From Tractidigestivibacter montrealensis (lineage in GTDB: Bacteria; Actinomycetota; Coriobacteriia; Coriobacteriales; Atopobiaceae), in NCBI RefSeq assembly GCF_024741235.1, contig NZ_JANSKA010000002.1, positions 1-64,000 of the forward strand: a stretch of DNA of 64,000 nt, written 5' to 3'. Every line of letters starts with the position of its first letter. Positions within the stretch are counted from its first letter, which is position 1. The notes below the pieces were generated by a model. The model had not been told where the DNA came from. It made no database searches and worked only from the letters and a program-made list of their open reading frames with translations. The position numbers were made by a program, and so were the translations under genes. Of the stretch, positions 5,952 through 49,856 are shown in pieces.

Positions 5952-7589
5952 CTAGGCCTTGTTCTCCTGGTCTACCAGGTGCGCCGCCCCGTACCTCTCG
6001 CGCAGGAGCGGCTTCTCGATCTTGCCCGTGGGGTTTCTCGGCACCTCGGCAAAGATTACCTTGCGCGGCCGCTTGTAGCGGGGGAGCGCCAGGCAGAACT
6101 CGTTGATGTCGTCCTCGGTGGTGTCCTCGTAGCCGGGCTTGAGCTCGATGATCGCTGCGGGTATCTCTCCCAGGCGCTCGTCGGGCAGGCCAATGACGGC
6201 CACGTCTTGGATGGCGGGGTTGGAGGCGAGAAAGTCCTCGATCTGCACGGGGTAGAGGTTCTCGCCGCCCATCACGATGACGTCTTTCTTGCGGTCGACC
6301 AGCCAGTAGAAGCCGTCCTCGTCCTGGCGCGCCATGTCGCCGGTGTGCAGCCAGCCGTCGATGAGGGTCTCGGCCGTGGCCGCGGGGTCCTTGTAGTAGC
6401 ACTCCATGAGGCCCGGGCCCTTCACGCAGAGCTCGCCAACCTCGCCAGGCGCGACCTCCTCGCCCTTCTCGTCCACGATCTTGCACTCCCACTGGTAGCC
6501 GGGAACGCCAATGGCGCCCACGTGGCCCACGTTCTCCACGCCCAGGTGGACGCAGCCGGGACCGCAGGACTCCGAGAGGCCGTAGTTGGTGTCGTACTGC
6601 TGGTTGGGGAAGACCTTGAGCCAGCGGCGCACCAGACTCTTGGGCACCGGCTGGGCGCCAATGTGCATGAGGCGCCACTGGTCGAGGTGGTAGTCGGCAA
6701 GCGTGACCGTGCCCTGCTCGATGGCGAGAAGGATGTCCTGCGCCCAGGGGACGAGCAGCCACACGATGGTGCAGCGCTCGTTGGAGACGGTCTCGAGGAT
6801 GGTCTTGGGGCTCACGCCGCGCAGGAGTACGCCGCGCCCGCCCACGGCGAGCGACCCCATCCAGTGCATGATGGCGCCGGTGTGGTAGAGCGGCGGGATG
6901 CAGAGAAAGACGTCGTCGTGCGTCTGGCCGTGGTGCTTCTGCTCCATGATGGCTGCCTGGGTGAGGCTCTGGTGGTGGTGCAGGATGGCCTTGGGGAAGC
7001 CTGTGGTGCCCGAGCTAAAGTAGACCGCCGCGTCTTCGTCCTCGGAGAGCGGGATCATGGGGTCTGCCGAGGAGCACAGGCCAACGAGCTCCTGGTAGGG
7101 CTCGGCCCAGGTGGGACAATCGTCGCCCACGTAGAAGAGCAGGCGGCCCTTCTGGATCTGGGGCACGATCTCTTCGACGCGGCCGGTGAACTCGGGGCCA
7201 AAGACCAGGATGTCGGCGTCGGACTTCTCGACGCAGTAGCGGATCTCGTCGGCGGAGTAGCGGAAGTTGAGCGGCACCACCGTGGCGCCGCTCTTGAGCA
7301 CGCCAAAGTAGATGGGGAGCCACTCGATGCAGTTGTAGAGCAGGACTGCGACCTTGTCGTCCTTGCGGATGCCGCGCGAGAGCAGCAGGTTTGCAAAGCG
7401 GTTGGCCTTCTCGTCAAAGACCTGCCAGGTCATCTCGCGGCGAAAGGGCTCGTCATCCGTGGTCTCGACGAGCTCGTAGTCGCGCCAGGTGATGTGGCGG
7501 TTCTCGCGGCGCTGTGGGTTCACCTCCACGAGGGCGACCTCGGTGGGGTAGAGCTCGGCGTTCTTGCGCAGCATGTCGACGATGGTCAC
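5952..7589 (-). CDS. AMP-forming acyl-CoA ligase, probably aryl-acid/arylacetate specific
   Basis: A 545-residue adenylate-forming enzyme of the acyl-CoA synthetase class. Conserved motifs in order are the P-loop FSSGTTGFPKA, DTNYGLSESCG, the hinge and ATP-ribose region DGWLHTGDMARQDEDG, KDVIVMGGENLYP, and the catalytic lysine in NPTGKIEKP. The frame opens at a GTG (7589) four bases after GGAGG; an ATG five codons in is an alternative. It lies 54 nt upstream of iorA. The context suggests it interconverts aryl acids and aryl-CoA made by IorAB, or activates a related acid. Substrate specificity is inferred from the operon only. Confidence 0.85.
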   Translation of the reverse strand: MTIVDMLRKNAELYPTEVALVEVNPQRRENRHITWRDYELVETTDDEPFRREMTWQVFDEKANRFANLLLSRGIRKDDKVAVLLYNCIEWLPIYFGVLKSGATVVPLNFRYSADEIRYCVEKSDADILVFGPEFTGRVEEIVPQIQKGRLLFYVGDDCPTWAEPYQELVGLCSSADPMIPLSEDEDAAVYFSSGTTGFPKAILHHHQSLTQAAIMEQKHHGQTHDDVFLCIPPLYHTGAIMHWMGSLAVGGRGVLLRGVSPKTILETVSNERCTIVWLLVPWAQDILLAIEQGTVTLADYHLDQWRLMHIGAQPVPKSLVRRWLKVFPNQQYDTNYGLSESCGPGCVHLGVENVGHVGAIGVPGYQWECKIVDEKGEEVAPGEVGELCVKGPGLMECYYKDPAATAETLIDGWLHTGDMARQDEDGFYWLVDRKKDVIVMGGENLYPVQIEDFLASNPAIQDVAVIGLPDERLGEIPAAIIELKPGYEDTTEDDINEFCLALPRYKRPRKVIFAEVPRNPTGKIEKPLLRERYGAAHLVDQENKA

Positions 7590-7790
7590 GATGCCTCCAA
7601 ATGACCTTGCGAACTTGCGGGGATGCCTGGGCGCCGCGGGCGATGGTGCGAGGCGGCAGCTTTTTTATTCTAGACGGGTGCGGTGCTGCGGGGGCGGGGG
7701 AGATTGCGCTTTTGGCGAGAATTGCCGCCGTGGCCGGCGCCGCGATGCCGCCGGGTCGTGCGCCGCGATGCCGCCGGATTTCGTCGGTTA

Positions 7791-7898
7791 GGAATTTTCC
7801 GAACGGTTAGAGGTGCCTAAACGGCGAGAATGGGCGGCAAGACGAGAATGCCGCGGATTCCGAACGGTTAGACCGCTCTAACCGGCGAAATCCCGCGG
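7791..7898. repeat. Two tandem copies of a ~48-bp imperfect palindrome (family C)
   Basis: Copy 1 (7791-7837) and copy 2 (7851-7898) share CGAACGGTTAG, then after a few bases CTAA(A/C)CGGCGA and an AT-rich ATT flanked by CCGCGG. Copy 2 folds on itself from CCGCGGATT to AATCCCGCGG. Two more copies in opposite orientation lie at 49573-49681, 42 kb away, so this is a dispersed family and not a local operator. Confidence 0.75.
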
Positions 7899-8056
7899 CG
7901 TTGATGGGGGCACACACAACCTTGCGCCGCGCGCCGCCGCCTGCCGCCGCGCGCCGAGAAGCGCCGCCGCTCTCGGCTGCGCGTGTCCTTCTCGTCCCCT
8001 TTTTGTTAACGCTTCTTCAGGCTTTCTCGATCCGGGGTTGATTTTTTTCAAATCTG

Positions 8057-8142: not shown

Positions 8143-9654
8143 ATGCAGTCGAAAATCGCGCACGCAGCCGAGCGCAAGGCGTTTAGCATCGCAATCGACC
8201 AGGCCATCAAGGGCGTCAGGAGCGATCACCCCGAGGAGGCCATCAACAAGTTCCTGGACATGGGCGGCAAGCTCCTCGCTGACACCGCGCCCGACATGGC
8301 AAACTCCCTGCGCAAGGCATTCTACCCTGGTTCCAAGTGGGAGAACTTCCTCATCGAGCTGGTGAGGGACCGCGTTGATCCCAACATCTTGAAGACCGCC
8401 GTCCTGAACGGCGCCTACGAGTCCGCCTTCCGCGGCCTGCGCGAGACTACCCAGTCTGCCGAGAAGTACCAGTGCAACGTGCCCTGGATCATCATCTTCG
8501 ACCCCACGAGTGCCTGCAACAAGCACTGCATCGGCTGCTGGGCCGCCGACTACGGCAACTCCCTCAACCTCTCCTTCGATGACATGGATCGCCTGGTCAC
8601 CGAGGCCAAGGCGCTGGGCACGCACTTCTTCATGATGACCGGCGGTGAGCCCCTGGCGCGCAAGAAGGACGTCGTCCGCCTTGCCGAGAAGCACGACGAC
8701 TGCATCTTTGGCCTCTTCACCAACGGCTCGCTCATCGACCAGAAGCTCTGCGACGACTGCAAGCGCCTGGGCAACATCGTGTTCTCGATGTCGCTCGAGG
8801 GCTTCAAGACCGCCAACGACGGTCGCCGCGGTGACGGCTCGTTCGACGAGGTTGTTCGCGCCATGGACCTCATGACCGAGAACGGCGTGCCCTTTGGCAT
8901 CTCTACCTGCTATACGCGCAACAACGTCGAGGACGTCACCTCCGACGAGTACTACGACTTCATCATTGAGCACGGTGCGCTGTGGCAGTGGTACTTCCAC
9001 TATATGCCCGTGGGCGAGGGCGCCAACGCCGACCTCATGCCCACCATCGAGCAGCGCGAGTACATGATTGACCGCATCCGCAAGATCCGCGACTACAAGG
9101 GCGGCAAGCCCATCATGGCCATGGACTTCCAGAACGACGGCGAGTTCGTGGGTGGCTGCATCGCCGGCGGCCGCGTGTTCTGCCACGTCAACGCCCGCGG
9201 TGACGTGGAGCCCTGCGTCTTCATCCACTACTCCAACGCCAACATCCACGAGAAGAGCTGGCTGGAGTGCCTGCAGCAGCCCATCTTCCAGGAGTACCGC
9301 GCCAACTGGCCCTGGAACGACAACATGCTGCGCCCCTGCCCCATGCTCGAGAACCCGCAGGTTCTGCCCAAGATGGTTCACGAGGCAGAAGCCAAGTCCA
9401 CGGAGTACACCTCGCCGGAGGACGTCGACCACCTGTGCGCCCGCACGGCTAAGTACGCCGAGAAGTGGGCGCCCGAGGGCGACCGCATCTGGGTCGAGGA
9501 GCACCCCACCGGCAAGAAGGTCTACGAGGACAACATCTCGATGATGGATGTCGACAAGAAGGCCAAGATGCTTGCCGAGAAGGATGCCGAGCTTGACTCG
9601 CAGGTTGAGGAGAAGCTCAAGGAGGAGAAGGAGACGGTCGGCGCCGCAAAGTAG
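8143..9654 (+). CDS. Radical SAM protein with SPASM-like C-terminal cysteines
   Basis: A 503-residue radical SAM enzyme. The SAM [4Fe-4S] motif is C125-x3-C129-x2-C132 in DPTSACNKHCIGCW. The SAM glycine-rich MMTGGEPLARKK follows. Later cysteines C339, C347, C358 and C399 sit in a region resembling a SPASM/twitch auxiliary-cluster domain (CHVNARGDVEPCVF, RPCPML). About 100 residues precede the radical core, and the C-terminus is a charged, probably helical tail. The ATG at 8143 follows GAAAGGAAG and is preferred to an in-frame ATG at 8038, which lies before the 8057-8073 palindrome. It is monocistronic, with a terminator at 9689. No peptide precursor gene is adjacent, so the substrate is unknown. 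Confidence 0.85.
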   Translation: MQSKIAHAAERKAFSIAIDQAIKGVRSDHPEEAINKFLDMGGKLLADTAPDMANSLRKAFYPGSKWENFLIELVRDRVDPNILKTAVLNGAYESAFRGLRETTQSAEKYQCNVPWIIIFDPTSACNKHCIGCWAADYGNSLNLSFDDMDRLVTEAKALGTHFFMMTGGEPLARKKDVVRLAEKHDDCIFGLFTNGSLIDQKLCDDCKRLGNIVFSMSLEGFKTANDGRRGDGSFDEVVRAMDLMTENGVPFGISTCYTRNNVEDVTSDEYYDFIIEHGALWQWYFHYMPVGEGANADLMPTIEQREYMIDRIRKIRDYKGGKPIMAMDFQNDGEFVGGCIAGGRVFCHVNARGDVEPCVFIHYSNANIHEKSWLECLQQPIFQEYRANWPWNDNMLRPCPMLENPQVLPKMVHEAEAKSTEYTSPEDVDHLCARTAKYAEKWAPEGDRIWVEEHPTGKKVYEDNISMMDVDKKAKMLAEKDAELDSQVEEKLKEEKETVGAAK

Positions 9655-9764: not shown

Positions 9765-9814
9765 GGGATTAAGTTACCGGGCAATGGAATCCCGTTGCCC
9801 GGTAACGGAATCCC
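9765..9814. repeat. Dispersed palindromic repeat, GGGATT...GTTGCC...AATCCC type (family B)
   Basis: A 29-bp imperfect palindrome (9765-9793) from GGGATTAAGTTACC to GGCAATGGAATCCC, overlapped by further arms GTTGCCCGGTAACGG and AATCCC to 9814. A related cluster is at 17680-17762. It ends 65 bp before the HAD phosphatase gene. Confidence 0.7.
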
Positions 9815-9878
9815 GTGTCTGGCCCCGCGCTGCCGTATGCTCTTCTCGGCAGACCGCGCGCGAGAAGGAAGGGGCACC

Positions 9879-17679: not shown

Positions 17680-17762
17680 GGGATTGAGTTGCCCGGTAAC
17701 TGAGTCGCACGCGGGATTGATTTGCTCGGCAACGGGATTGCATTGCCCGGCAACTCAATCCC
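17680..17762. repeat. Cluster of family B palindromic repeats
   Basis: The unit GGGATTGAGTTGCCCGGTAA and variants start at 17680, 17713 and 17734 in direct orientation. The last copy closes with an inverted arm (GGCAACTCAATCCC), giving a 29-bp hairpin at 17734-17762 with 12 of 14 positions paired. The same unit occurs at 9765-9814. Confidence 0.75.
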
Positions 17763-24153: not shown

Positions 24154-24486
24154 ATGTCACACGCCTCGTCCGCACCGCTCAGGATGACCGAGATGAGAGA
24201 GAGGCACCTCTCGCTCAAAAGAAGTGGGGCCCGGCGGTCCGATGCCGCAGCCGGGAGGGACGGCCTGCTGTGGTCCTCTCCGGATGCGCAGGGCGAGCCT
24301 GATAAGCTCCTCTGGATGGAGGGTGGCGTCGAGAAGGACACACCCGAGCTCGATGAGCCCACAAGGACGTGGCTTGAGGAGTCGTCCGAGTGGACGGGCT
24401 CTACCGCTGGAGCTGCAGGCGGCACCGACAGTGCCGGCGACGGGGGAGATGACCCCGCACCCCCCAACACCCTCGTGTGGATATGA
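24154..24486 (+). CDS. Small acidic protein of unknown function (110 aa)
   Basis: I do not recognise a family. The frame starts at an ATG nine bases after a good GGAGG ribosome site. The first part is basic and serine-rich (REREHLSLK-like); the rest is acidic and rich in Glu, Asp, Ser, Thr and Gly, with tryptophans in DKLLWMEGG and RTWLEESSEW. There is no signal peptide, membrane helix or cysteine. It looks largely disordered. Its stop codon is the first TGA of a dispersed palindrome (24484-24512), exactly as for two confident genes in this window, which supports it being translated. It lies behind the gltD terminator, so it needs its own promoter. Confidence 0.5.
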   Translation: MSHASSAPLRMTEMRERHLSLKRSGARRSDAAAGRDGLLWSSPDAQGEPDKLLWMEGGVEKDTPELDEPTRTWLEESSEWTGSTAGAAGGTDSAGDGGDDPAPPNTLVWI

Positions 24487-24512
24487 GACAAAGGGAGCTT
24501 CCCGTTGTCTCA
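24484..24512. repeat. 29-bp dispersed palindrome (family A), degenerate copy
   Basis: From TGAGACAAAGGGA through GCT to TCCCGTTGTCTCA. The outer arms TGAGACAA/TTGTCTCA pair perfectly. Its first three bases are the stop codon of the small ORF at 24154-24486. Better copies are at 30640, 38053 and 43813. Confidence 0.8.
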
Positions 24513-24579
24513 TCCCGCTGGCGCCCGCCCCACGCGCTGGCGCCCCAAGGTGCGTTTTCGTAGCTATCGTGTACGAATT

Positions 24580-29565: not shown

Positions 29566-30642
29566 ATGGCCAAGGAGAAGAAGGGTGTGCGCCTTGAGCA
29601 CATCTCCAAGATCTATCAGGACCCCAAGACAAAGAAGGACTTCTACGCCGTCCACGACGCCAACCTGGAGATAGCGCCCGGTGAGTTCGTGACGCTGCTC
29701 GGCCCCTCTGGCTGCGGTAAGACCACCATCCTGCGCATGATCGCTGGTTTCGAGAGCCCGGACGAGGGACAGATCTACCTGGGCGGCGAACCCATCAACG
29801 ACCTTACCCCCAACAAGCGCGACACGGCCATGGTCTTCCAGAGCTATGCCCTACTCCCGCACTACAACATCTTCGACAACGTGGCGTATGGCCTCAAGAT
29901 TCGCAAGCTCCCCGCTGAGGAGATACGCGAGAAGGTCACCCGCATCCTGGGCATGGTTGGCCTAGAGGGCATGGAAGACCGTATGACCAACCAGCTCTCG
30001 GGCGGCCAGCAGCAGCGCGTTGCGCTGGCGCGTGCCCTGGTCATCGAGCCCTCGGTCCTGCTCTTCGACGAGCCCCTCTCGAACCTTGACGCCAAGCTTC
30101 GCGTTGAGATGCGCACCGAGGTGCGCCGCATCCAGCAGGAGGCGGGCATCACGGCCGTTTACGTCACGCACGACCAGTCCGAGGCCATGGCCATCGCCGA
30201 CAGGATCATTGTCATGAAGCGCGGCGTCATCGACCAGGTTGGCGACCCGCACGCCGTCTACTATCGTCCCGTCGACGAGTTTGTGGCCGACTTCATTGGC
30301 GAGTCCAACTTCCTGCGTGGCAAGCTTGCCGAGAAGGAGGGTGACACCGGTGTCGCGACCATCGAGGGGCACGGCGTTGAGGTTGACGGCGTTTCCGCCC
30401 ACAGCGTGGGCGATGACATCACCCTGGTGCTGCGTCCCGAGGCGGCCACCCTCGCTGACGAGGGCGTCCTCCACTGCAAGGTCACGCTCTCGCGCTTCAT
30501 GGGCAGCTACCAGAACTACCAGGTCATGGTAGGCAACACCCTTGTCAAGATTCAGGACTTCAACCCCAAGACCCACAAGATCTACGAGGTGGGCGACGAT
30601 GCCTTTGTGAGCTTCACAAAAGGCGACGTTCACGCACTATGA
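29566..30642 (+). CDS. ABC transporter ATP-binding protein, iron(III)/spermidine type
   Basis: A 358-residue ATPase with the Walker A GPSGCGKTT (about residues 46-54), the Q-loop VFQSYALLPH, signature LSGGQQQR, Walker B VLLFDEPLSNLD and the H-loop VTHDQSEA. The C-terminal ~110 residues form a TOBE-type domain as in FbpC and PotA. It energises the permease 3 nt upstream. Unusually its stop codon (30640-30642) is the first TGA of the 29-bp family A palindrome, so the protein ends DVHAL exactly at the repeat. A rho-independent terminator follows. Confidence 0.93.
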   Translation: MAKEKKGVRLEHISKIYQDPKTKKDFYAVHDANLEIAPGEFVTLLGPSGCGKTTILRMIAGFESPDEGQIYLGGEPINDLTPNKRDTAMVFQSYALLPHYNIFDNVAYGLKIRKLPAEEIREKVTRILGMVGLEGMEDRMTNQLSGGQQQRVALARALVIEPSVLLFDEPLSNLDAKLRVEMRTEVRRIQQEAGITAVYVTHDQSEAMAIADRIIVMKRGVIDQVGDPHAVYYRPVDEFVADFIGESNFLRGKLAEKEGDTGVATIEGHGVEVDGVSAHSVGDDITLVLRPEAATLADEGVLHCKVTLSRFMGSYQNYQVMVGNTLVKIQDFNPKTHKIYEVGDDAFVSFTKGDVHAL

Positions 30643-30668
30643 GACAAAGGGACAGTCCCTTTGTCTCA
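30640..30668. repeat. 29-bp perfect dispersed palindrome (family A)
   Basis: Arms TGAGACAAAGGGAC and GTCCCTTTGTCTCA around a single A. The first TGA is the stop codon of the ABC ATPase gene. It is followed 3 nt later by a separate terminator hairpin. Confidence 0.92.
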
Positions 30669-30671
30669 TTG

Positions 30672-37671: not shown

Positions 37672-38055
37672 GTGAAGCCGATCGACATCGTTCTTATCCT
37701 GGCCGTTGTCGTGATTCTCGCCATTGCCATCCGTCGCTTTGTTGGAACCGCCACGGGTACGCGCGACTGCTGCAGCGGCGCCAAGAAGTCCGCAGGCAAG
37801 CAGTTTCGTGCGCGCACGATTGACGACAAGGACGAGAGCCACTATCCCTACCAGGCAAATCTTGAAATTGGCGGCATGAGCTGCGAGCACTGCGTGGAGA
37901 ACGTCACCCGCGCGCTCGATTCCGTCGACGGCACCTGGGCCACGGTCTCGCTTGCCGGTGGCCGCGCGCACGTGCGCTCAAAGTCTCCCATCGACGAGAA
38001 CGCGTACCGCAAGGTCGTCGAGGAGGCCGGCTATCGCCTGGTGGGGCTTGAATGA
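37672..38055 (+). CDS. Membrane-anchored heavy-metal-associated (HMA) domain protein
   Basis: A 127-residue protein. One N-terminal membrane helix (about residues 5-22) is followed by TRDCCSGAKKSAGK, like the short FeoB-associated cysteine-rich membrane proteins. A linker leads to an HMA domain (about residues 60-127) with the copper/soft-metal motif GGMSCEHC and the family's YRKVVEEAGYRLVG end. It probably binds Cu+ or a similar ion near the membrane. The ribosome site is AGGAGG. No metal ATPase gene is adjacent. Its stop codon TGA (38053-38055) is the first triplet of the family A palindrome shared with the convergent gene. Confidence 0.83.
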   Translation: MKPIDIVLILAVVVILAIAIRRFVGTATGTRDCCSGAKKSAGKQFRARTIDDKDESHYPYQANLEIGGMSCEHCVENVTRALDSVDGTWATVSLAGGRAHVRSKSPIDENAYRKVVEEAGYRLVGLE

Positions 38056-38081
38056 GACAAAGGGACTGTCCCTTTGTCTCA
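38053..38081. repeat. 29-bp perfect palindrome forming the stop codons of two convergent genes
   Basis: Arms TGAGACAAAGGGAC and GTCCCTTTGTCTCA around a T. The left TGA ends the HMA gene on the plus strand and the right TCA is the TGA stop of the cysteine desulfidase-like gene on the minus strand. The repeat therefore fills the whole space between them and may act as a bidirectional terminator. Confidence 0.93.
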
Positions 38082-39386
38082 TGAGCAAACGGTTTTGCCA
38101 ATCATGATGTTTAGGATTTCGACGTCGGTGGGGTGCATGCCAACGCGGCCCACGTAGCCCATAGAGCGAATGGTCTCCTCGGCCGTCTCGCCGATAAGCC
38201 CCTCGCCAGGCCTAAAGTCCACGTTTGCCAGGGCCATGTCGCAGCCGAGAATCGCCGCGTCCACCGCTGCCGCAATCTTTGCCGCGCAGCTTGGCTTGGC
38301 GCCGTCGCACACGATGCCGCCCACGTTTGCCAGCGTGTTCGCAATGGTCGCCTGATACTGCCCAAAGGAGCCCCCGCGCAGGTAGCACACGGCCGCCCCG
38401 GCTCCGGTCGCCGCCGTCACCGCGCCGCAGAACGCCGAGAGCTCGCCAATGAAGCGCTTGGCGTGGATGGCCGTGAGGTCCGAGAGCGCCACTGCGCGCA
38501 GCATCTCGTCGTGGGGGACGCGCAGGTATCTGGCGTATTCCGCAACCGGCAGCGAGCAGGTGATGCCCTGGTTGCCGCTTCCGCAATTGATGACCACGGG
38601 CATGGCGCAGCCGCTCATGCGCGCGTCGGAGCCTGCCGCGGCAGCAGCCCGCGCGCGGCACGAGATGTCATCGGGCCTTGTGAGCAGGAGCGTCTTGCCA
38701 ATGCGGGCGCCCCAGTCGCCCGACAGCCCCTCGTCCGAGATTGCGGCGTTGAGCTCCACCTGGCGCTCGACCATCTCGCGAATGTCCTCGACGTAGACCT
38801 CGTGTACAAACTCCCAGATTCCCTCCAGCGAGAGGGACGAGAGGCCCGGCTCCTCCGGCTCGCCGTCGGCGCCGCAGGTGTCCTGCTCGTTTGTCGTGAC
38901 GCCATCGACGCTGACGGTCATCCCGTCGCGCGAGAGCTCGACCACGTTGGTGTGGCGGCCTGCCACGCAGGCCACGCCGGTGTGGCCTTGACCCGTGGCG
39001 ACCGCGCGCACGTAGAGGTTGGGCACGCCCTCGGCGAGAGAGACCGAGCAGAACCCCGCCGAGACAAGCTCGCGCGTGCGCTGACGGTCCTTCTCGCCCA
39101 CGCCCTCAAGCACCTCGAGCGCTCGCGTGGCGTCGCCGCCAACGGCACCCAGCGTTGCTGCGGCCTCTATGCCGCGCTGGTCACCGGAGTTGGGTACCGT
39201 CACGCTCTTTACGTTCTTGATGATGTTGCCGCTGCAGGAGACCTCGAGGTGCTCCGGTGTGGCACCCAACGCGTCGCGCGCGAGGGCGGCCACGTAGGCC
39301 ACGGCGATGGGCTCGGTGCAACCAAGGGCGCAGACAAGCTCACGCCTTAGGATGTCGAGATAGGTGTCGTAGGTGCTGCAATCCAT
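38079..39386 (-). CDS. L-cysteine desulfidase / UPF0597 (CyuA-like) family protein
   Basis: A 435-residue protein of the serine dehydratase alpha-like UPF0597 family; characterised members (CyuA/YhaM, archaeal CdsB) release sulfide, ammonia and pyruvate from cysteine using an iron-sulfur cluster. Visible motifs are GCTEPIAVAYVAALA, SGNIIKNVKSVTVPN, VINCGSGNQGITCSLPV and GIVCDGAKPSCAAKI. Cysteines in GCTEP, NCGSGNQG and the last motif suit [4Fe-4S] coordination. Length is standard. It ends exactly at the family A palindrome. With the transsulfuration pair at the window start, it suggests cysteine is also used as a catabolic substrate. Confidence 0.85.
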   Translation of the reverse strand: MDCSTYDTYLDILRRELVCALGCTEPIAVAYVAALARDALGATPEHLEVSCSGNIIKNVKSVTVPNSGDQRGIEAAATLGAVGGDATRALEVLEGVGEKDRQRTRELVSAGFCSVSLAEGVPNLYVRAVATGQGHTGVACVAGRHTNVVELSRDGMTVSVDGVTTNEQDTCGADGEPEEPGLSSLSLEGIWEFVHEVYVEDIREMVERQVELNAAISDEGLSGDWGARIGKTLLLTRPDDISCRARAAAAAGSDARMSGCAMPVVINCGSGNQGITCSLPVAEYARYLRVPHDEMLRAVALSDLTAIHAKRFIGELSAFCGAVTAATGAGAAVCYLRGGSFGQYQATIANTLANVGGIVCDGAKPSCAAKIAAAVDAAILGCDMALANVDFRPGEGLIGETAEETIRSMGYVGRVGMHPTDVEILNIMIGKTVCS

Positions 39387-43808: not shown

Positions 43809-43812
43809 CGTA

Positions 43813-43859
43813 TGAGACAAAGGGACTGTCCCTTTGTCTCTGGCTGTCCCTTTGTCTCA
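43813..43859. repeat. Family A palindrome with a duplicated right arm
   Basis: TGAGACAAAGGGAC (43813-43826) and its complement (43827-43840), followed after 4 nt by a second right arm CTGTCCCTTTGTCTCA ending at 43859. Unlike the other copies it does not overlap a stop codon. Confidence 0.88.
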
Positions 43860-48759: not shown

Positions 48760-49536
48760 TTGACACAGACGCAAACCGGCGAGGCGCTCCCCGCAGAGGG
48801 CACTCCCGTCATCGAGCTTCGCCACGTGGACAAGCACTTTGGCAGCCTCCACGTGCTCAAGGACATTAACCTCAAAGTTGGCAAGGGCGAGGTTGTCGTG
48901 GTTATCGGCCCTTCGGGCTCGGGCAAGTCCACGCTTTGTCGCACCATCAACAGACTCGAGACCATCGACTCCGGCGAGGTTCTCATCGAGGGCAAGCCGC
49001 TCCCGCAGGAGGGCAAGGAGCTTGCCGCCACGCGCGCCGAGATTGGCATGGTCTTCCAGTCCTTCAACCTCTTTGCGCACCGCTCGATCATCGACAACGT
49101 GACCATGGGCCCCGTTGAGGTGCTTGGCGTGCCGCGCGACAAGGCCCGTGAGGAGGGCATGGAGCTCCTGCGCCGCGTTGGCGTGGCGGAGCAGGCAGAT
49201 AAGATGCCCGCGCAGCTCTCCGGTGGCCAGCAGCAGCGCGTGGCCATTGCGAGGTCCCTGGCCATGCACCCCAAGGCGATGCTCTTTGACGAGCCCACCT
49301 CGGCGCTTGACCCCGAGATGATCAACGAGGTCCTGGACGTCATGGTCGAGCTTGCCCGCGGCGGCATGACCATGGTGGTGGTCACGCACGAGATGGGGTT
49401 CGCCCGTCGTGTGAGCGACCGCGTGGTCTTCATGGCCGATGGTGCGATCGTCGAGGAGGGCAAGCCCGACGAGTTCTTTGAGCATCCCACTTCCGCGCGC
49501 GCACGCGAGTTCCTCGACTCCATCAAGGGGCACTAG
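48760..49536 (+). CDS. Polar amino acid ABC transporter ATP-binding protein (GluA/GlnQ-like)
   Basis: A 258-residue ATPase with Walker [11 protein letters not shown] (about residues 49-58), Q-loop [13 protein letters not shown], signature LSGGQQQR, Walker [16 protein letters not shown] and H-loop [10 protein letters not shown]. The EMGFAR segment is characteristic of amino acid importers. The TTG at 48760 has a perfect AGGAGG 5 nt upstream and gives TQTQTGEAL as N-terminus. It closes the four-gene importer operon. Confidence 0.93.
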
Positions 49537-49856
49537 GGGAACGGCTGCACTTCGCGGGATTGCTCTGCCCTGCCGCGAGATTTCGCCGTTTAAGAGTGGC
49601 TAACCGTTCGGAATGCGCGGCAACTCTGCAATGCCGCGCATTCTCGCTGTTTAGGGGCGGTTAACCGTTCGATATCCGCGGCACTCGGGGTTGCGCCGTT
49701 TTCTCTGGCCATCCTCGTCGCACCTCTGCCTGCTCCACGTGGCCTCCATTCCGCACGGGCTTGCCGTATGCCACCCTCCCATTTGGGTAGACGTGTGTTC
49801 GTTGACTATTCCGCAGGCACGCAGCCGCAGTGGGTGGCGTTGGCGATGGGGGAGAT
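49537..49856. other. Intergenic region with family C repeats
   Basis: These 320 bases hold two family C palindromes (49573-49681) and then a unique stretch. TTGACT at 49802-49807 is a possible -35 box for the following gene, without a clear -10. GGGGGAG precedes the ATG at 49857. No ORF or RNA gene is evident. Confidence 0.6.
49573..49681. repeat. Two tandem copies of the ~48-bp family C palindrome, inverted relative to 7791-7898
   Basis: Copy 3 (49573-49620) and copy 4 (49633-49681) read CCGCG(A/C)..., TCGC(C/T)GTTTA, then TTAACCGTTCG or CTAACCGTTCG and a closing CGCGG. They are reverse complements of the copies at 7791-7898. The 12-bp gap between tandem copies is similar at both loci. Confidence 0.75.

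Follow-up and report, generated by a model that had tools for sequence, protein, structure and literature searches.

Two family C elements in the window

The window, a 64,000-nucleotide stretch of the Tractidigestivibacter montrealensis genome (contig NZ_JANSKA010000002.1, positions 1 to 64,000), carries two repeat elements that we call family C. Site 1 lies between divergent genes, and site 2 begins 34 bp past the stop codon of an ABC transporter ATPase gene (Table 1). Both sites show the same kind of compound element, in which a 9-bp linker connects two palindromic units, each 52 or 71 bp long, and the cores are 61 bp apart (7800/7861 and 49600/49661). The initial annotation had described four palindromes of about 48 bp, in two pairs with similar gaps, tandem within each site and of opposite polarity between sites. 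We recovered all four at about the same places, site 1 extending 22 bp further left (7769); the parse gives 71+9+52 bp at one site and 52+9+52 bp at the other, with tandem polarity inside each pair, and the unit length is corrected to 52 or 71 bp. The cores singled out at that time, CGAACGGTTAG and CTAAACGGCGA, are present and are read here as two half-site kinds, A and B'. Next to site 1 on the left, positions 7745-7790 of this genome (G000) contain a short tandem duplication (GATGCCGCCGG...), the same stretch being single in G002.

Table 1. Features at the two family C sites, in window coordinates
Feature	Position	Strand	Remarks
AMP-binding enzyme gene (PF00501)	5952..7589	-	left neighbour of site 1
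Site 1, whole	7769-7900	+	71+9+52 bp
Site 1, unit 1	7769..7839	+	71 bp; locus L174
Site 1, unit 1, long left arm	7769-7810		half-sites B and A
Site 1, unit 1, centre	7811-7816		6 bp
Site 1, unit 1, short right arm	7817-7839		B'
Site 1, linker	7840..7848	+	9 bp
Site 1, unit 2	7849..7900	+	52 bp; 23-bp arm A, 6-bp centre 7872-7877, 23-bp arm B'
Radical SAM gene (PF04055)	8143..9654	+	right neighbour of site 1
ABC transporter ATPase gene (PF00005)	48760..49536	+	left neighbour of site 2
Site 2, whole	49571-49683	-	52+9+52 bp; polarity opposite to site 1
Site 2, first unit	49571..49622	-	52 bp; arms 49571-49593 and 49600-49622, 6-bp centre
Site 2, linker	49623..49631	-	9 bp
Site 2, second unit	49632..49683	-	52 bp; arms 49632-49654 and 49661-49683, 6-bp centre

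Family C units follow one grammar and occur as pairs

One grammar was used to parse 104 loci from eight Tractidigestivibacter genomes. Each unit is built of 23-bp arms around a variable 6-bp centre, an arm being composed of an outer TGCCGCG box and an 11-bp half-site, either A (CGAACGKTTAR) or B (TCGCCGKTTAR), and the unit ends are ATGCCGCG/CGCGGCAT. Units measured 52 bp (n=104), 71 bp (n=107) or 72 bp (n=2), that is, exactly 52 or 71 bp in 211 of 213; the 71-bp form has one arm longer by exactly 19 bp. The two arms of a unit are mostly unlike, A being paired with B in 84 of the 104 short units. The parser found 122 units in the first 60 loci and none when the same loci were read backwards. 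By itself, the 11-bp core is no rarer than expected by chance if two mismatches are allowed (5 found versus 13.4 expected), whereas the full unit is: the two-core pattern gave 8 matches in the T. montrealensis genome versus 0 for a reversed-pattern control.

Among the 111 parsed clusters, 88 were pairs, 17 were single units and 6 had three or four units. Linkers were of 9 bp (n=72), 10 bp (n=22), 8 bp (n=4) or 11 bp (n=1), accounting for 99 of 109 gaps; six of the remaining gaps between neighbouring units exceeded 700 bp and separated different clusters. Pairs are thus the rule, as the initial annotation had proposed to check, and copies elsewhere do not have the random number and spacing that it had named as counting against a paired unit. 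Within the 88 pairs, long arms pointed outward in 96 cases and inward in none, and the inner arms were unlike in 77 (B'/A or A'/B), hence a tandem polarity. Recombinase sites of the dif-like 11-6-11 kind were considered and set aside, the two 6-bp centres of one element being identical in only 2 of 73 elements.

Family C lies between genes without strand bias

With a simple gene caller, we placed 60 of the 111 clusters between tandem genes, 25 between convergent and 18 between divergent genes; 7 lay at the edge of a contig or locus, and a single cluster overlapped a called gene, the only one to do so over more than 30 bp. Of the 60 clusters in tandem contexts, 55 were nearer to the upstream stop codon (median 66 bp) than to the next start (216.5 bp), and gene starts were at least 74 bp away (at least 107 bp in divergent contexts). 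The strand relation to the genes in these 60 cases was the same in 26, opposite in 16 and unassigned in 18, which is no bias. Such a REP-like placement without strand bias argues for a feature acting at the DNA level.

Family C was found only in the genus and has a sister type

The unit model matched all eight Tractidigestivibacter genomes at E <= 0.001, and at least 143 of the matches listed were carried forward, opposite-strand duplicates left out. Under stricter filters (E <= 1e-5), a family-wide search found the unit in 8 of 140 genomes, all of them Tractidigestivibacter. A one-pattern scan of GTDB contigs returned 32 stretches: five Olsenella/Tractidigestivibacter-type genomes supplied 31 of them, and the remaining one, in Marinobacter, is probably a chance match. 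Besides the C1 units, there is a sister type, C2, with consensus CTGCAAATTTCGATCGGTTAG-N6-CTAACCGATCG, commonest in G003 and G002. The C2 search pattern matched all eight genomes, some C1 units being caught as well when one mismatch was allowed. C2 has the same spacing as C1: in a count restricted to minus-strand rows of G000-G002, 15 of 16 gaps below 1 kb were of 61 bp (the other of 72 bp), and a separate count gave 7 of 10.

An AbiEi-like gene is bracketed by family C pairs

Outside the window, a 338-aa open reading frame of the same genome (G000:C4:721556-722569) is flanked by two family C pairs, as it is in G001, G005 and G007. They are found to either side of the gene, some 230-265 bp ahead of its start. 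Seven of the eight genus genomes have a close ortholog (77-84% to the G005 query), G004 having only a 39% paralog, and the G001 ortholog contains an in-frame stop. All seven are bracketed by a repeat common to both flanks (score 29.5-126.5), of type C1 in G000, G001, G005 and G007 and of type C2 in G002 and G003. In G004 the reading frame is absent and one pair is left between the same two neighbour genes. Both G004, which lost the gene, and G001, with its in-frame stop, still keep many elements.

The protein gave a weak PADLOC match to AbiEi (E 1.4e-6, residues 75-192), no match in Pfam or NCBIfam and none to the Y1 transposase. A PDB profile search returned chance-level matches only, and a scan of viral contigs found no relative. 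A structure predicted from the single sequence was discarded (mean pLDDT 39); residues 31-45 look by eye like a recognition helix, in a fold that prediction did not confirm. Residues E213, D247, E261, D263 and K267, among others, were at least 94% conserved in 32 homologs, forming a C-terminal E..D..ExD..K motif that we take to be of the PD-(D/E)xK nuclease type. Judged by eye in the ORF lists for L173 and L238, the gene neighbours look like NUDIX, a membrane protein and pdxK rather than the AbiEii nucleotidyltransferase toxin gene that adjoins the antitoxin gene in type IV (AbiE) toxin-antitoxin systems.

Palindrome type and protein sequence vary together, in a comparison of two genomes with four: the C2-rich G002 and G003 have 12 residues in common that set them apart from four C1 genomes, and all but one of the 12 (11) fall within residues 35-117. 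G002 is otherwise a near sister of G000, and 18 of its 26 differences in residues 31-120 match G003, versus 8 of 22 in residues 121-326.

We also observed that in four genomes (loci L173, L190, L238 and L268) the AbiEi-like reading frame extends into the downstream palindrome and terminates there, its last residues being MPRDFAV, IPRDFAV or MPRNLAV. The AbiEi-like reading frames of G002, G003 and G006 have no such tail.

Distant AbiEi-like genes are bracketed by repeats of their own

AbiEi-like homologs were present in 91 of 140 family genomes. The first five distant homologs, from other genera, had palindromic or inverted repeats on both sides, and 20 more were added to give a sample of 25, of which 24 came from other genera and one was a G007 paralog. 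A repeat common to both flanks scored above 15, the 95% point of 232 mismatched comparisons, in 24 of them, above 20 in 22 and above 40 in 15; locus L321 fell below the threshold. None of 47 control genes in the window exceeded 15, and among 161 genes of the repeat-rich genome G112 the corresponding numbers were 15, 4 and 1. A plain test for palindromes on both sides was positive in 18 of 25 distant loci versus 7 of 100 controls.

Palindrome centres were 30-31.5 or 60.5-62.5 bp apart at 9 of the 25 loci (12 of 50 flanks), versus 0 of 300 control stretches. This period of 61 bp, with its half (30.5 bp), matches that of family C in unrelated sequence. The 25 loci fall into only 12 flank-similarity clusters and are therefore only partly independent; all nine period-bearing loci except L303 belong to one cluster, and the shared period could reflect common descent of the arrays. 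Dispersal was sampled in one genome, G112: within 400 kb, the palindromes beside its three genes were found again at 3/3, 6/5 and 2/1 other positions (upstream/downstream flank). Since 24 of 200 random G112 segments also recurred at three or more places, dispersal there is indicated and not proven to be special.

Elements turn over between species while their arms are constrained

At the 7.8-kb site, pairs are present in G002 and G005, one unit in G001 and none in G003, G004, G006 or G007. The 49.6-kb site has C1 pairs in G005 and G007, a degenerate pair in G004, a C2 pair in G002, three C2 units in G003, one unit in G006 and other repeats in G001. The single unit of T. scatoligenes (G001) at the 7.8-kb site, where kh2p3 (G005) has two, is consistent with singles deriving from pairs by deletion between repeated arms. 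Polarity was kept at every orientable orthologous pair (87 comparisons), and in-place inversion was rejected. Another ortholog comparison used 45 hand-picked pairs out of the 87, 43 of them counted (35 + 8). Orthologous copies of equal length were 72 to 100% identical. Copies at different places of one genome reached at most 86%, except the two that bracket the AbiEi-like gene (89-95%). Given this variable occupancy and the low identity between places, turnover is real and recent jumping is not seen.

Whole elements, with arms not separated, did not differ overall from their surroundings (84.2% element versus 85.1% intergenic identity, 172 usable alignments). We then considered 25 sites, each represented by one hand-chosen ortholog pair with an identity of 88% or more. 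Changes were seen at 42 of 1967 arm positions (2.1%), at 65 of 1154 positions elsewhere in the element (5.6%) and at 122 of 2921 positions of the 60-bp flanks (4.2%), so that arms change 2.6 times more slowly than other parts of the element. Arms were the slower part at 23 sites and tied at 2, and 0 of 5000 circular label shifts gave as few arm changes; some ascertainment towards conserved arms remains, because the sites were hand-chosen and the elements found through their arms. This conservation points to a function for the arms.

The suggestion in the initial annotation that the pair is the mobile or functional unit is accordingly upheld in part. The numbers of units per cluster, the constant linker and the long arms that only ever point outward all agree with the pair as unit, and the arm conservation agrees with function; the mobile part finds no recent trace.

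A proposed partnership between an AbiEi-like protein and its palindromes

The initial annotation had proposed to test protein recruitment and transcript ending as roles for the pairs, and we favour the former. Judging from sequence comparisons, the family C pair is probably the recognition site of an AbiEi-like DNA-binding protein and would have been dispersed as REPs are by RAYTs, both the binding and the mobility being what we infer. Four 23-bp half-sites, as two inverted pairs, would form a double, operator-like site, of which the protein would leave the 6-bp centre unread, the fixed 9-10-bp linker setting the 61-bp period. The gene holds one conserved place in the genus with a palindrome pair on each side, and further pairs, tens per genome, are scattered between genes. 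The logic would be of the RAYT/REP type, but with a partner lacking a Y1 transposase match, whose C-terminal part may be a PD-(D/E)xK-type nuclease. The pairs may have spread in the past with the help of this protein and would now be mostly inherited in place.

With slightly more confidence than doubt, we extend this proposal to a class: AbiEi-like proteins with the nuclease-like C-terminal motif would form selfish or genome-marking gene-palindrome partnerships in Atopobiaceae, independent of RAYTs. Each gene would be bracketed by a private array, often on the 61-bp period, read by the N-terminal domain and dispersed genome-wide, with palindromes and reading residues changing together. Family C would be the set of one such gene in Tractidigestivibacter. 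We found no report of palindromes bracketing AbiEi-like genes in the open-licence literature, and a gene-and-repeat partnership of this kind seems previously undescribed. If the proposal holds, private palindromes regularly bracket the genes of a second protein class, unrelated to RAYTs, which would provide a testable explanation for repeats without a known partner. AbiEi-like proteins, so far known as antitoxins, would then appear able to partner genome-wide repeats, and the question would arise whether the nuclease-like domain cleaves the DNA at the palindromes or between them.

Known AbiEi operators offer a template. In the cited passages of PMC7319586, AbiEi of the S. agalactiae abiE system binds two 23-bp inverted repeats 3 bp apart, and for Rv2827c of M. 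tuberculosis the 23-bp inverted repeats form two tandem pairs, with gaps of 13 bp within and 4 bp between pairs, and all of these repeats can be bound at once; these known operators are read by a winged helix-turn-helix protein. Family C has the same build of tandem pairs, 23-N6-23, 9, 23-N6-23, where the figure of 23 bp depends on the arm end chosen, an end that was fixed earlier than our look at the published operators. The gaps differ, being 6 bp within and 9-10 bp between pairs in family C, and for this reason, together with the dependence on the arm end, the likeness is support and not proof. AbiEi operators moreover overlap promoters, whereas family C occupies many dispersed sites and both sides of the gene. 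The family C partner has a weak sequence match in common with the AbiEi family but an additional C-terminal domain and, by eye, other neighbours.

Alternative explanations

Where dispersed bacterial palindromes have a known partner, RAYT transposases are the explanation. Family C might likewise be a classical REP, BIME or REPIN family, moved as doublets by a Y1 (RAYT) transposase now lost or unrecognised, its adjacency to the AbiEi-like gene being incidental. REPs are described as extragenic paired palindromes near stop codons (PMC3733652, PMC3116915), as family C is, and the T. montrealensis genome holds two real RAYT-REP pairs. According to the passages cited (PMC2817692, PMC3116915, PMC3733652), the systems also have in common a gene bracketed by its own palindromes, further intergenic copies, a doublet unit and singles derivable from doublets. 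We nevertheless regard this explanation as unlikely. Family C flanks 0 of 11 Y1_Tnp genes in the eight genus genomes, and the RAYT link was dropped; another repeat family, also in the window, flanks 10 of the 11. REPs are palindromes of 20-40 bp that carry an unpaired tag, GTAG or CGTC, on one side, whereas family C units are of 52-71 bp and no such tag was seen in the flanks listed. A REPIN consists of two inverted REPs as replicative unit; family C pairs are tandem in 77 of 88, a type reported to be absent or under-represented among REPs, and have a fixed linker of 9-10 bp. Arrays in several genera combine unlike sequences with a common 61-bp period, and the RAYT explanation leaves the bracketing of distant AbiEi-like homologs unaccounted for. 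CGTC-tagged REPs resemble family C as dispersed paired palindromes whose dedicated transposase is apparently absent, but the passages cited give them as mostly head-to-head dimers with 8-9-bp stems and the CGTC tag, predominantly in alphaproteobacteria (PMC3733652).

Ordinary regulon operators, bound by the AbiEi-like protein or another factor solely to regulate neighbours and with no mobile past, would account for the arm constraint, the conserved polarity and the lack of signs of recent transposition. We judge them improbable, since the pairs keep away from promoters (distances given above), occupancy varies among close species and distant homologs have their own, mostly unrelated repeats, like selfish gene-repeat systems.

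Transcript-level hairpins, acting as bidirectional terminators or 3'-end stabilisers, fit the proximity to upstream stop codons and the strong predicted folds (z -4.1 to -5.0). They are also improbable, and transcript ending was not borne out: tandem contexts lack a strand bias, 18 clusters including site 1 lie between divergent genes, the arms of a unit are mostly unlike and a gathering-level Rfam scan of the window gave 0 matches. Base-paired stems under selection were rejected, no compensatory excess being found in arms or 6-bp centres; only linker positions 4-6 exceeded shuffles. MITEs of a DDE transposase, whose terminal repeats would be the outer long arms, agree with the outward-only orientation (96 of 96) and the varying occupancy but are similarly improbable, as inspection by eye of the sequence flanking the 88 pairs showed no apparent target duplication and no near-identical copies were found at distant places of one genome.

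Other repeats in the window

The two Y1_Tnp genes of the T. montrealensis genome are bracketed by other repeats, one by a GAGACAAAGGGA repeat and the other by a GGAATCCC repeat, both of which also occur in the window. The repeat GAGACAAAGGGACaGTCCCTTTGTCTC, at 24483-24513, 30639-30669, 38052-38082 and 43812-43842, brackets the Y1_Tnp (RAYT) gene at G000:C6:286822-287160 as well as RAYT genes in four further species, making it an ordinary REP/RAYT pair. The repeat GGCAATGGAATCCCRTTGCC, at 9765-9818 and 17709-17762, brackets the second Y1_Tnp gene (G000:C5:287877-288209). A third RAYT type, at L077 of G003, is flanked by CCACCCGC...GCGGGTGG direct repeats. Finally, a short motif, TTCTCGGC / GCCGAGAAG, is very frequent in intergenic DNA and next to the palindromes, both in the window and in other genera (e.g. 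L302, L306 and L307).
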